From: Lachnospiraceae bacterium
Lineage (GTDB): Bacteria; Bacillota; Clostridia; Lachnospirales; Lachnospiraceae
Assembly (NCBI GenBank): GCA_017517305.1
Contig: JAFWZV010000006.1
Location: forward strand, 111,440-175,439
Direction of reading: 5' to 3'
DNA: 64,000 nucleotides
Positions 16,319 through 22,897 of the stretch are shown here, piece by piece. The notes beneath the pieces are model-generated. The model was given only the letters and a program-made list of their open reading frames with translations, was not told the DNA's origin and searched no databases. The position numbers and the translations under genes are program-made. Position 1 is the first letter of the stretch, and each line of letters starts with the position of its first letter.

Positions 16319-17499
16319 GTGAATATAAAGACTAAATGGGCGCGGATGCTTTATGGCAATCCGTTTTTTGATATGTTTGCTGGAATAGGTGGATTTCGTT
16401 CTGGACTGGAAGCTGTGGGAGATTTTCAATGTGTGGGATACTGCGAAATAGATAAGTATGTGAGACAGGCATATGAGGCTATGTATGATACGAAAGGAGA
16501 GGTGTATTTTGATGATGCAAGAAACATTGAGCCAGAGAAACTTCCCGATATTGACCTTATTTGCGGAGGATTCCCTTGTCAGAGCTTTTCAATTGCTGGA
16601 AAGCGGGGAGGATTTGACGATGCAAGAGGAACGCTGTTCTTTGAAATCGCTCGAATTGCCGTCGTTAAAAGACCTTCTTATCTGCTCCTTGAAAATGTTC
16701 CCGGCTTGCTATCGCATAACGGGGGCAGGACTTTTGCGACCATCCTCAGTACGCTTTCTGACTTGGGGTACAATGTCGCATGGCAGGTTCTTAACAGCGC
16801 GAATTTTGGAGTTGCCCAATCCCGAAAGAGAGTGTTCATTGTCGGATTTCTTGGAGAGCGATGTGCCGGAAAAATACTTTCTTTCACAGAGACAAATGGA
16901 ACGTCTCTTATACAAAGCATACCCGGAACACAGGGAAACAGAGAGTCTATTCCACAGAAGGATTAAGCTGCACTTTAACAAGTGGTGCAGGAGGCTTTGG
17001 TGGCAAGTCGGGACTGTATGATGTAGGACTGCCAACTTCTGGAAATACACAAGGGTTGTTCTTCATCGATATGAATGAGAATCCGAAACTGACACAAAAT
17101 GCAAGGTGCATTACGACAAGACAGGATGCGGAAATCGGTAACAGAAAAGGAGAGCATTCAGGAGTGTTTATGGAAGAGACGAGAGCTATACTGACACCAG
17201 ATAGGGAAAAGGTAAGACAACAGGGCAGAAGGATTAAAGAACCTGATGAGCCAATGTTTACCATTACCGCATAAGACAGACAAGGTGTTGTAAGGTATGG
17301 CAAAGTAAGAAAGTTAATGCCGATTGAATGTTGGAGGCTTCAAGGCTTTAGTGATGAGCAGTTTTATAAGGCACAGGAAACAGGGCTGTCCGATGCAAGA
17401 CTTTATAAGATGGCTGGCAATGCCGTAACTGTCTCGGTGATTTCAGCACTAGGAAAATTAATATTAGAGATAAATGCCAAATATGGCGTTGTGAAATGA
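16319..17499 (+). pseudogene. Decayed DNA (cytosine-5) methyltransferase
   Basis: The C5-methyltransferase motifs are clear: motif I DMFAGIGGFRSGLEA, motif IV with catalytic Cys GGFPCQSFSIAGKRGGF, motif VI LLENVPGLLS, motif VIII SRKRVFIVGF, and motifs IX/X downstream (CWRLQGFSDEQFYK, YKMAGNAVTVSV). Two lesions break the gene. An extra GA in the AGAGAG tract at 16940-16945 shifts the frame and causes a stop at 16964. In the restored frame, CAA has become TAA at 17272 in a region where homologues read TAQDRHG. The GTG start at 16319 is tentative. The enzyme would have protected the element against restriction; only a C-less fragment could be made now. Confidence 0.85.
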
Positions 17500-17507
17500 G
17501 GTGGTAA

Positions 17508-18275
17508 ATGGAAATAAATCCAAACAAGGCAATGGTGGAACTTGTAAGGGAAAATCCCAACGATATAGGTTGTATTTATGCAAGCGTTGAACTTCCTATT
17601 TCGAAGTTACAGACACAGGATGCCCTGCACAGGGCAAGGTGGACAACTGAGGACGATGGGGAATACAGGGAACTGTATTTTACCAACTGTCCGAAATTGC
17701 CAGGGTTAGTGAATATGGTTATAAATGATGCAACTTTAAGAGAAGCAGACTTCTTTGCAAAAAGACTGGAACAGCTTCCGCTGGAAGAATTGATAGCCTT
17801 AAATGCCATTGTAGAAAATAACCTTGATGCTGGAAAATATAAGGATGGTGTATCTATGAAAGAGTTAATTAATCAGACCTATGGACTGGATGTAGTTATG
17901 ATAGCATCTGATGTAGGAAATGATGAGGCTCTGGGGCAGTTTGTCATAGAAAATGAACTGCACGAAGATGTGACATCAGTACCGGAAAATGCCATATATC
18001 TTCTCGACAAAGAAAAGTATCTTGGGATTGGTCAGACAAAAGCCAGGGAGATACTTACTAAGACCGAGAATAACTTTACTGTGAGAATAGGAAACAGATT
18101 GTATGTCAATAAGAGACAACTTGATAAATGGCTTATGAATATCAGTGGAAATCATGTGGATAAGGTTAGGGGGAACAGGAGATGGGAAAGGACAATAAAG
18201 GAAAAGAACTTGGAACACATTTCTATCAGAGAAAAGACGGAAGATATGAAGCAAGGGCAACAATTAATGGGGTGA
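17508..18275 (+). CDS. Fused antirestriction-like / excisionase-like protein
   Basis: A 255-residue chimera. Residues 1 to about 160 (CIYASVELPISKLQTQDALH, FFAKRLEQLPLEELIALNAI, ELINQTYGLDVV, ALGQFVIENELHEDV) resemble the ArdA-like antirestriction segments carried by Clostridial conjugative elements. From about residue 168 it changes to an excisionase-type DNA-binding domain: YLGIGQTKAREILT, then IGNRLYVNKRQLDKWLM. These two modules are normally separate genes at opposite ends of an element. The last 94 bases overlap the integrase gene in another frame. The simplest reading is an in-frame deletion joining them. GAGGTGG precedes the ATG. Confidence 0.6.
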   Translation: MEINPNKAMVELVRENPNDIGCIYASVELPISKLQTQDALHRARWTTEDDGEYRELYFTNCPKLPGLVNMVINDATLREADFFAKRLEQLPLEELIALNAIVENNLDAGKYKDGVSMKELINQTYGLDVVMIASDVGNDEALGQFVIENELHEDVTSVPENAIYLLDKEKYLGIGQTKAREILTKTENNFTVRIGNRLYVNKRQLDKWLMNISGNHVDKVRGNRRWERTIKEKNLEHISIREKTEDMKQGQQLMG

Positions 18276-19408
18276 AAATTAGTATTTATGGACGAAATCT
18301 CCGTGAACTCAGAAAACAATTTGAAGAACAAAAAGAACTGGCAGAAAACAGAATTGAAGCCAGAAGAAAAAGAATTACACTCAATGAATGGTTTGAGGAG
18401 TGGTTTGTCACATATAAAATCCCTAATATCAAGGAAACCAGTGTATTTCCAATGCGAAGAAAGTATTACAACACCTTTGGTAAGTACCTGGGGCATATGA
18501 GGGTTATTGATATAACTAATATGGATGTACAAAATGTCATAAACAGATTAAAAAGTGAAGGTAAGGCAACATCTACAATGCGAGATGCCTTAGGAAGAAT
18601 GAGGGATTGTATGGAAGCAGCAAAGAACAATATGCTTATTCCTATCAATCCCTGTTTTGAAATTAGGGTTCCTTGGGAGAATAAACAGGTTAAGAGACGA
18701 TTTCTGTCTCAGGAGGAACAAAATATATTCCTAAAGGCGGTTGAGAATAACTGGTATAAGGAAATGTTTTATATTATGTTTCTTACAGGTATTCGTGTTG
18801 GAGAAGTCGGTGGACTGATGTGGAGTGATGTTGATTTTGATAATAAATGTATATTTATTAATAGGACTCTTTCATGCCAATATGAATACGGAAATAAAAT
18901 GCTTCGACTAATGGAACCTAAAACTCATAATTCATATAGAAGGATTCCATTTTTCGGAGAAGCAGAGGAAATGTTTCGTGCACAATATAATAAGGTTCAA
19001 AATCTGAAGAAAGCTCTTGGTTCAAGATGGAGAGCCGGAGAAGGATATGAGGACTTGGTTTTTGTTACAACCATGGGGAGTCCGGTCTTAAGATATCATG
19101 CAGAGAAAGAGATTAAAAAAGTTGTAAAGGAGATTAATTATCAAGAGGAAATCAACTCAAAATTCGAGGGTAGAGAGCCAGTTTTCTTTGAAAATATGTA
19201 CCCACATGCCATAAGACATACTTTTTGTAGTCGTTGTTTTGAGGCACACATGCAACCTAAAGTTGTACAAAAGATTATGGGGCATCAGCATTATAGCACA
19301 ACTATCGATATATATACCCATGTAACGGATAATATTATGGAGGAAGAGATTTGTAAGTTTGGGTATGCCATGCAGGATGGCGGAGATGATGGTGGGATGA
19401 GGATGTGA
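18182..19408 (+). CDS. int: Tyrosine recombinase / integrase (Tn916 Int-like)
   Basis: A 408-residue site-specific recombinase. The N-terminal AP2-like arm-binding domain (about 10-60, HFYQRKDGRYEARATING) is followed by a core-binding SAM-like domain (about 65-160) and the catalytic domain with Arg205 (FLTGIRVGEVGGL), His342 and Arg345 (HAIRHTFCSR), His368 (MGHQHYSTT) and nucleophile Tyr378 (DIYTHV). All catalytic residues are present, so it looks functional. It overlaps the upstream fusion gene by 94 bases, and its stop is 51 bases before the right bipartite repeat, which suits integrase next to its attachment site. Confidence 0.93.
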   Translation: MGKDNKGKELGTHFYQRKDGRYEARATINGVKISIYGRNLRELRKQFEEQKELAENRIEARRKRITLNEWFEEWFVTYKIPNIKETSVFPMRRKYYNTFGKYLGHMRVIDITNMDVQNVINRLKSEGKATSTMRDALGRMRDCMEAAKNNMLIPINPCFEIRVPWENKQVKRRFLSQEEQNIFLKAVENNWYKEMFYIMFLTGIRVGEVGGLMWSDVDFDNKCIFINRTLSCQYEYGNKMLRLMEPKTHNSYRRIPFFGEAEEMFRAQYNKVQNLKKALGSRWRAGEGYEDLVFVTTMGSPVLRYHAEKEIKKVVKEINYQEEINSKFEGREPVFFENMYPHAIRHTFCSRCFEAHMQPKVVQKIMGHQHYSTTIDIYTHVTDNIMEEEICKFGYAMQDGGDDGGMRM

Positions 19409-21700: not shown

Positions 21701-21871
21701 ATGGCTAATTCTTTACCTTTTAATATGACTTTGAATGATAGCAACTATAGAGTTGAGGAAGCAGTTGTGGCAATGCGAGAACTTAGTAGAATGGCAGTGG
21801 AAAATGGTACTGCTGACATGAGTTTAGAGGAGATTAATGCAGAAATAAATGCATCTAGAAATGAGGGGTGA
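21701..21871 (+). CDS. Orphan RelB/DinJ-like antitoxin
   Basis: A 56-residue frame starting MANSLPFNMT, with AAGGAG at 21687-21692 eight bases upstream. The region AVVAMRELSRMAVENGTADM and SLEEINAEINASRNEG matches the C-terminal toxin-binding half of RelB/DinJ-type antitoxins, which typically ends in an (S/T)LxEI(N/D)xEI motif. The N-terminal ribbon-helix-helix half is missing and no RelE/YafQ toxin follows, so this is an orphan or remnant, perhaps able to counter a toxin elsewhere. Confidence 0.55.
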   Translation: MANSLPFNMTLNDSNYRVEEAVVAMRELSRMAVENGTADMSLEEINAEINASRNEG

Positions 21872-21977: not shown

Positions 21978-22006
21978 TTGCAATTTTATACTTGGTGGTG
22001 TAAAAT
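21978..22006 (+). promoter_or_regulatory. Promoter of the repeat RNA
   Basis: TTGCAA (21978-21983) and TAAAAT (22001-22006) spaced 17 bases. Transcription would begin near 22013, just before the folded RNA, and no open frame lies between promoter and repeats. Confidence 0.55.
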
Positions 22007-22059
22007 GTAATTAGAAAAGCTGTGTATCAGCGGTGGGTTGACACCTAAAATCTGATATA

Positions 22060-22159
22060 TTTTCCGAACGAAGGTGTCGGAGGTTGGCAGGCAACGGAAA
22101 AACCTGTTATTTTCCAGACATGGGTGCTGGAGGTTGGCAGACAACGGAAAAATCAACCA
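22060..22159 (+). repeat. Two 50-bp tandem repeats
   Basis: Period exactly 50 bases (TTTTCC at 22060 and 22110). The longest identical block is GGAGGTTGGCAG in both, then one changed base, then CAACGGAAAAA. Conservation follows the predicted stem regions rather than codons. Confidence 0.8.
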
Positions 22160-22161
22160 TG

Positions 22162-22203
22162 AAAAGGGAATGTTTGATGCTGCGGCATAAACATTCCCTT
22201 TTC
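22162..22203 (+). terminator. Terminator between repeat RNA and PBECR4 gene
   Basis: AAAAGGGAATGTTT (22162-22175) pairs with AAACATTCCCTTTT (22189-22202); the loop holds an ATGC/GCAT inner stem. In type III loci, partial read-through of such a terminator sets the RNA:toxin ratio. Confidence 0.8.
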
Positions 22204-22231
22204 TAAATAACTTTGATGTAAGGATTTGATT

Positions 22232-22897
22232 ATGGACAAAAGACGTGCAATTCAGATAATAACAAAAGCAGCAGTATTATATAGAGATAATCTTGAAGAT
22301 CAGAAAGTATTGTTTTTGTACGGAATACCTTCAGAAGTGAAAAAACAGTTACAGACACAAGACAAAGTTTTGTCGGCTATTGAAAGTTATGAAGTTGCAT
22401 TTCATCGATATAATTTTTTGCATTTAACTGGAGTTAGATTGAATAAAAATGGTACAGCGTCTGCAATACATTTTTATCAGAAATGTTTAGACGGAAGATT
22501 ATCAGAAAATGATTTTACTTTTGCACAAGATGGTTCTACGGGACAAAAATTAGATATATTAGAAAGTATGATGCTGTTAAAGAAGAATGTAACAATGATA
22601 GGAGAATTTACAGATAGAGGCCCTAAATTGTTTACTGAGAAAGTAGCAGGAAATGTGTGTGGATGTATTGGTTTTGTGAAAGATAGAAATACAAAATTGA
22701 ATGTTCCGAATACTTTGCTCAAAAAAGACATAAGAGATGTGACTGCGCAGCCAGTTTATAAGGTTTTTGCTGTGGTTTCCAAGCATTATACAGATGATAA
22801 GTATACAAATATTGTAAAGTGTGACAAGAGTATTGATTTAAAAACATGTCGATTTATTGAGAAAATAGAAAATCAGATAAAAATAGATATGTTATGA
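22232..22897 (+). CDS. PBECR4-type nuclease-like protein (candidate RNA-antagonised toxin)
   Basis: A 221-residue soluble protein from the ATG at 22232 (TAAGGA seven bases upstream). Landmarks agree with the PBECR4 domain (BECR-fold nuclease group that also includes RelE-, barnase- and ToxN-like folds): FLHLTGV (63-69), FYQKCLDGRLSENDF (81-95), KLDILESMMLL (106-116), AGNVCGCIGFVKD (139-151), PNTLLKKDIRDV (159-170) and VFAVVSKHYTDDKY (178-191). A structured repeat RNA and a terminator lie directly upstream on the same strand, the arrangement of type III toxin-antitoxin loci. Nuclease activity is inferred, not shown. It is the last gene before the island's right repeat. Confidence 0.6.
   Translation: MDKRRAIQIITKAAVLYRDNLEDQKVLFLYGIPSEVKKQLQTQDKVLSAIESYEVAFHRYNFLHLTGVRLNKNGTASAIHFYQKCLDGRLSENDFTFAQDGSTGQKLDILESMMLLKKNVTMIGEFTDRGPKLFTEKVAGNVCGCIGFVKDRNTKLNVPNTLLKKDIRDVTAQPVYKVFAVVSKHYTDDKYTNIVKCDKSIDLKTCRFIEKIENQIKIDML

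Follow-up and report, generated by a model that had tools for sequence, protein, structure and literature searches.

The window, which is the whole stretch of 64,000 nucleotides analysed here, carries on its forward strand a locus composed of a promoter-like sequence, a structured RNA, an intrinsic terminator, and a gene for a PBECR4 protein. The promoter-like sequence (21978..22006) combines the -35 hexamer TTGCAA (21978-21983) and the -10 hexamer TAAAAT (22001-22006) with a 17-nt spacer; at the same position, homologous loci show, by eye, TTGCAT-17-TAGAAT or TTGCAT-17-TAAAAT. Downstream lies a three-unit structured RNA (22018..22161), denoted ring RNA and proposed below to be an antitoxin, which scores 135.3 bits with the covariance model R1, the window itself being a member of the R1 training set. 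The terminator between RNA and gene (22161..22203) has perfect 15-bp arms (22161-22175 and 22189-22203) with 13 nt between them. The 201 nt containing RNA and terminator reach -69.2 kcal/mol, compared with a mean of -48.4 kcal/mol for 200 dinucleotide shuffles (z -5.4). A ribosome-binding-site-like AAGGA (22220..22224) precedes the PBECR4 open reading frame (22232..22897; ATG at 22232, 221 amino acids), which encodes the proposed toxin, a predicted metal-independent RNase. A preliminary description of this DNA had listed the promoter, the RNA, the terminator, and the PBECR4 gene with its own ribosome site; this observation is confirmed as a whole, the terminator arms being 15 bp long rather than 14.

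To the left of the locus are a DUF4314 gene, a C-5 cytosine methylase gene broken across two ORFs (16319-16966 and 17317-17499), and a tyrosine integrase gene (18182-19408); to the right are genes for a PcrA/UvrD-like helicase, chemotaxis, and NAD metabolism. This gene content fits the earlier placement of the locus at the edge of a putative island. A 56-aa ORF just upstream of the RNA (21701-21871) had no family match over the cut-off and looks, by eye, like the C-terminal part of a short ORF adjacent to a solitary RNA (L136).

The PBECR4 protein

The 221-aa protein matches Pfam family PF18813 (PBECR4) with an E-value of 2.9e-43 and 148.9 bits, against a curated cut-off of 27, and no other Pfam family matches it at an E-value of 1 or lower, in agreement with the preliminary assignment to PBECR4 rather than to ToxN, CptN, or TenpN. 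NCBIfam and PADLOC searches with this protein returned nothing useful, and a PDB sequence search, performed also with a 28-member profile, detected no ToxN-type or other relevant chain. According to the available part of the source publication, PF18813 is named after a predicted RNase group, the PBECR domains of polyvalent phage proteins, which carry a histidine in an N-terminal helix; that text names no RNA antitoxin, and the word PBECR4 is absent from its main text. Unlike these domains, PBECR4 is encoded here by a gene of its own, which is paired with an RNA.

Only Met1, His64, and Gly67 are invariant across 28 diverse PBECR4 members. The conserved N-terminal histidine of the PBECR RNases is thus represented in 28 of the 28 by His64, the putative catalytic residue. 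As a possible counterpart of the C-terminal Thr/Ser of the PBECR RNases, a serine or threonine occurs near P159-L162 in most of the rows, as judged by eye from the sequence alignment alone. A BECR fold is predicted from Pfam and the literature, and by family membership, PBECR4 is predicted to be a growth-inhibiting endoribonuclease.

Fold and conservation of the ring RNA

The two repeats of the preliminary description are present (22058-22102 and 22108-22152; spacing 50, in-register identity of 82% over 45 nt), but the RNA has three units, the first of which, unit 0, had been missed. Unit 0 (22032..22054) precedes both repeats and consists of the hairpin GGTGGGTTGACACC at 22032-22045, with the stem GGTG/CACC and the loop GGTTGA (22036-22041), followed by the tail TCTG (22051-22054). 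Units 1 (22083..22106) and 2 (22133..22158) share the hairpin stem GTTG/CAAC, which had been correctly recognized, and have the loops CAGG (22088-22091) and CAGA (22138-22141) and the tails CCTG (22103-22106) and TCAACC (22153-22158), respectively. The TTTTCC/GGAAAA stem also assigned to the repeats is, by eye, not kept in other RNA classes.

The pseudoknot suspected earlier is supported, with pairs different from those proposed. Loop CAGG of unit 1 pairs with its own tail CCTG, within repeat 1, forming an H-type pseudoknot, whereas repeat 2 pairs with the upstream unit: loop 0 (GGTTGA) binds TCAACC, the tail of unit 2, and loop CAGA of unit 2 binds tail 0 (TCTG). Because units 0 and 2 swap tails, the chain closes into a ring. 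In other loci, the loop 0 pairing takes the forms GCTGA/TCAGC, GGCTAA/TTAGCC, GCTTGA/TCAAGC, and TGGTTAG/CTAACCA, and the loop 2 pairing the forms CGGA/TCCG, CAAG/CTTG, CTGG/CCAG, and TGGG/CCCA.

The fold covaries. Across 19 diverse rows and 26 base pairs, 95.7% of the cells are paired (80.7 in shuffled controls), 22 of the 26 pairs change on both sides (9.0 shuffled), and the covariation score is 0.452 against 0.166, with none of 500 shuffles as high. Partners slid out of register are paired in 26-52% of the cells, a comparison biased towards the proposed register, because the structure was read off some of the same sequences. For the unit 1 pseudoknot, all 4 pairs change on both sides and 98.7% of the cells are paired; for the two helices joining units 0 and 2, the values are 93.9% and 100%, and all 10 pairs change on both sides. 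In a set of 38 rows, loop and tail of the same RNA form 4 or more base pairs in 37 cases for loop 0, 36 for loop 1, and 35 for loop 2, counts that include four passes that are not real units (L155 for loop 0; L110, L054, and L063 for loop 1), compared with 59%, 29%, and 37%, respectively, when loops and tails are swapped between rows with different loops. The real loop 1 helix of L110 is, by eye, TTGG/CCAA. The misses are L127, a solitary RNA, for loop 0; L146 and L153, with 3 bases each, for loop 1; and L134 (a solitary RNA), L155 (two units), and L063 for loop 2.

Eighteen close homologs of the window PBECR4 were found, most of them in Lachnospiraceae, with 69-87% protein identity, and all 18 have ring RNA directly upstream, with one repeat retained in L049 and the contig beginning inside the RNA in L034. 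In 13 homologs, identity to the window is 92-97% for the RNA (144 nt), 68-89% for the ORF, and 51-64% for the stretch before the RNA, and unit 0 is as conserved as both repeats. Neither the window nor a 451-base segment surrounding the RNA had a relevant Rfam match, whether to drum (RF02958; see below) or to any other family. The number of units varies by eye: the ring RNA of L132 has four, and those of L049, L135, and L140 have lost one; the toxin beside these four RNAs is broken, a remnant, or absent.

Association of the RNA with PBECR4 genes

PF18813, the R1 model, and the drum model were searched in the same set of 397 genomes of the family to which the window belongs. With an E-value limit of 0.001, PF18813 was detected at 95 places, distributed over 72 genomes (65 genomes over the curated cut-off), ring RNA at 43 places in 37 genomes, and drum at 42 places in 35 genomes, 40 of these over the gathering score. 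A PF18813 match follows 14-202 nt downstream on the same strand for 22 of the 43 ring RNAs and 30 of the 42 drum RNAs, where chance would give, by a rough estimate, about 3e-5 per RNA. The preliminary description would have been refuted by a lack of repeat RNA upstream of homologous PBECR4 genes; such RNA is present at all 18 close homologs, and a ring or drum RNA precedes 55 of the 95 PF18813 places. The other 40 places lack both, and many of them have other RNAs by eye; one of the 95 places (G147:C30) was left out of the fetched loci.

Of 64 nonredundant intact PBECR4 genes (from 77; L049, of 172 aa, is counted as intact here and as broken in the RNA-presence count below), 56 are preceded by a terminator-like hairpin, compared with 21 of 74 control ORFs, which were drawn from the window and from 11 loci of close homologs. 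By eye, several of the eight loci without a terminator call have an interrupted terminator. The position of the terminator between RNA and gene fits an excess of RNA over toxin, as described for type III systems in the available literature. In a broader sample of the phylum, PF18813 is rare, with 4 of 398 genomes, including that of the window, and the two carriers from other families show, by eye, an RNA-like stretch and a terminator.

RNA classes and the PBECR4 phylogeny

The link to drum was found when Rfam named RF02958 in 8 of 20 PBECR4 loci scanned. A 2017 paper reportedly contained 224 candidate RNAs. The accessible literature on drum gives its structure only, with no function. In one PBECR4 clade of 23, drum occupies the position of the ring RNA ahead of the gene, and this shared place is what the two RNAs have in common; no tandem units were seen in drum, unlike in ring RNA, and the window RNA does not match the drum model. 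Closure of the drum tail and loop was observed in 15 of 25 own pairs and 157 of 584 swapped pairs, a difference that is only suggestive (one of the 26 loci, L029, was dropped for want of the anchor).

Seven RNA classes were distinguished, ring and drum by covariance models, or by alignment for close homologs, and the others by eye. On a tree of 75 PBECR4 proteins, which includes near-copies and some long branches, these classes require 8 changes, with a minimum of 6 and a mean of 39.6 for shuffled classes; none of 200 shuffles was as low as 8. A single branch (92/91) separates the 23 drum rows from all others, and classes J, K, and M are each set apart by one branch as well; ring accounts for two changes, class I for two, and the mixed class 'other' for five. 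The RNA class therefore follows the toxin tree, that is, the RNA co-evolves with the toxin.

Class J RNAs are tandem self-contained pseudoknots: all 7 loci have one or more units, and some shuffles score as well as L079. Class I has two self-contained pseudoknot units in 3 of 4 loci. Other upstream RNAs, recognized by eye only, define classes K and M and several singletons, with L067, L081, and L095 ambiguous. In class K (L092, L098, L099, L104, and L106), the RNA looks alike in all five loci, GTTCGG...GGAGTTCC...CCGAATAGG, and a terminator is present. Rfam scans of these five loci gave no match up to E 0.05. A generic pseudoknot finder detected no unit in 9 of 21 loci, namely, the five of class K, L071, L094, L100, and L113.

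Broken PBECR4 genes and solitary RNAs

All 56 rows with intact toxins of the ring and drum clades have the RNA; these represent 55 distinct loci (L008 and L036 are one locus; the gene of L015 is cut by the contig end) and 43 nonredundant ones after collapsing at 0.85 similarity. Among 22 broken toxins of the same clades (L018 and L048, and L049 and L055, each pair counted once), the RNA is kept in 16 and absent in 6, which compared with the 43 intact toxins gives a p value of 9e-4, to be taken only as a guide because the intact lists were partly drawn with the RNA in view and the comparison is partly circular. The RNA is missing only at broken toxins in these clades, the asymmetry expected of an antitoxin.

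Conversely, 21 of the 43 ring RNAs and 12 of the 42 drum RNAs have no adjacent PBECR4 match. BLAST identified a remnant, or a PBECR4 start at the contig edge, in 5 of 20 fetched ring loci (one of the 21, G010:C204, was left out) and 3 of 12 fetched drum loci; the remnant in L133 is about 1.5 kb from the ring RNA. In two genomes (L138 and L139), the RNA is an additional ring RNA that lies some 1.5-1.7 kb away from a PBECR4 gene and on the other strand. BLAST found no PBECR4 remnant at 13 ring and 9 drum solitary loci, and no shared neighbor of the solitary loci was noticed by eye. Remnants explain only some of these cases, so the RNA can persist alone. An antitoxin RNA without a toxin would be tolerable, and a toxin without its antitoxin would not.

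Phages and plasmids

PBECR4 copies recur on phage, Enterococcus, lactobacillus, and Avibacterium elements. Ring RNA precedes PBECR4 in Erysipelothrix phage phi1605 and on one plasmid each from Pediococcus, Enterococcus faecium, Macrococcoides, and Avibacterium paragallinarum; 77 Enterococcus records match the L112 protein, the RNA context being taken from one record. In Lactiplantibacillus plantarum, ring RNA precedes a broken PBECR4 copy (L154), and on an L. plantarum plasmid with PBECR4 in two pieces (L156), no ring RNA was detected (best E 0.97). L110-L112 were included in the R1 training set, and L152-L154 were outside it. In IMG/VR, protein searches with four single PBECR4 proteins found nothing, and a 23-base pattern from unit 2 alone retrieved three contigs, all three with a PF18813 ORF next to the match (E 5.6e-31, 1.2e-23, and 3.9e-18); in one of these contigs (L148), the ORF is partial, and its score covers just 150 aa of the gene.

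Discussion

We propose, with a probability of about 0.8, that the locus is a type III-like module for addiction or abortive infection, in which a structured RNA is the antitoxin and the PBECR4 nuclease the toxin. The best reading of the sequence comparisons is that the module would represent a new family of RNA antitoxin and nuclease, with a toxin outside ToxN, CptN, and TenpN. The solitary ring and drum RNAs, and the 40 PF18813 places that lack both RNAs, weigh against this proposal. The core idea of the preliminary description, an undescribed type III-like locus, survives, whereas its count of units, with which the ring closure was missed, the repeat stem, and the likeness of known type III toxins to the BECR fold do not.

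In the proposed mechanism, a single promoter would yield abundant RNA that mostly ends at the terminator, and occasional readthrough would provide PBECR4 mRNA. The RNA would fold into three hairpins, with each loop capped by a tail that is joined through an A-rich linker; unit 1 would use its own tail, and units 0 and 2 would cap each other. Each capped hairpin would bind one PBECR4 RNase and block its active site. The trigger would be a failure of RNA supply, by loss of the element or shut-off of transcription by a phage, upon which free PBECR4 would cut RNA and become toxic.

Alternatively, the RNA might act in cis as a leader: responding to a ligand or stress in the manner of a riboswitch or attenuator, it would regulate readthrough into a PBECR4 gene that is harmless by default. 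A series of structured domains ahead of a terminator would also be compatible with tandem riboswitches, and RNA, terminator, and gene are co-oriented at nearly every locus inspected. We nevertheless consider this explanation unlikely. One argument comes from locus L155, Ligilactobacillus salivarius plasmid pCTN1046. Here, no ring RNA lies upstream of PBECR4, and a convergent two-unit RNA (R1 E 1.1e-7) with its own terminator is located just downstream, on the other strand; in the region 663-1680, PBECR4 follows, at a distance of 5 nt, a coiled-coil ORF whose N-terminus is weakly MerR-like. A leader acting only in cis cannot explain this arrangement, and a trans-acting antitoxin can. Furthermore, RNAs that keep the fold occur without PBECR4, and the RNA classes shift with the toxin clade, whereas a ligand pocket would stay constant.

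It is still more doubtful that the RNA is a cofactor or guide which, like a crRNA, activates or aims the nuclease instead of inhibiting it. The close pairing of RNA and protein in the ring and drum clades and the stronger conservation of the RNA relative to the gene would suit such a role, but no spacer-like variable segment was seen, and the variable loops and tails covary within the RNA; moreover, broken toxins often keep the RNA, and the RNA is missing only with broken toxins. A diverged member of ToxIN, CptIN, or TenpIN, as might be suggested by the same gene order, terminator, tandem RNA, and H-type pseudoknots reported in the accessible literature for these systems, is hardly credible, given that PF18813 is the protein's only Pfam match (E up to 1), no ToxN-type chain was matched in PDB, and the RNA has no Rfam match.

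Returning to the RNA-antitoxin module, a broader proposal, to which we give somewhat less than even odds, is that PBECR4 serves as the toxin in RNA-antitoxin systems that form a large class of their own, with ring RNAs, tandem pseudoknots, and drum all guarding one nuclease family and with the tail swap between the end units of the ring RNA pre-organizing three docking sites in one unbroken chain. If this is true, the function of drum RNA would be solved. The RNA-neutralized toxins would gain a family outside ToxN, CptN, and TenpN, the orphan Rfam family drum would acquire a proposed function, and an RNA topology closed by tail exchange between the first and last units would be added. Among the open-access papers listed in our searches, none was seen to connect PBECR4 or drum with a toxin-antitoxin system.

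Comparison with known systems

Among the systems described in the accessible literature, AbiF-RCd22 of Clostridioides difficile, in which a two-motif RNA neutralizes a non-ToxN toxin in cis and in trans, shares with the PBECR4 locus the promoter, a multi-motif RNA with a terminator, and the toxin gene behind it. The toxin and RNA families differ, and neutralization is experimental for AbiF-RCd22 and inferred from sequence for PBECR4.

With ToxIN, CptIN, and TenpIN, as far as the available accounts describe them, the locus shares a tandem pseudoknot RNA, followed by a terminator and then the toxin gene. The RNA lies upstream of the toxin gene in the PBECR4 loci, with the exception of L155; a Rho-independent terminator separates the two; and the RNA is a repetitive pseudoknot in ring RNA and classes J and I. 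CptI is likewise reported as a 45-nt H-type pseudoknot, and some type III systems are reported to stabilize plasmids. Type III toxins in general are endoribonucleases that inhibit growth, process their antitoxin RNA, and are neutralized through direct contact with it. The toxins are different: those of type III systems, which the preliminary description had taken for BECR-fold-like, resemble the MazF/Kid/CcdB family according to the accessible part of a review, and neither Pfam (E up to 1) nor PDB searches revealed a sequence relationship of PBECR4 to ToxN, CptN, or TenpN. Because its toxin and RNA match none of the three, the locus is not filed as ToxIN, CptIN, or TenpIN. The RNAs differ as well, in that one branch of PBECR4 uses the non-tandem drum RNA, and in that each unit of the known systems is knotted to itself, whereas units 0 and 2 of the ring RNA are knotted to each other. 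If the proposal of pre-organized docking sites is true, the ring RNA would be a one-molecule version of the ToxIN triangle.
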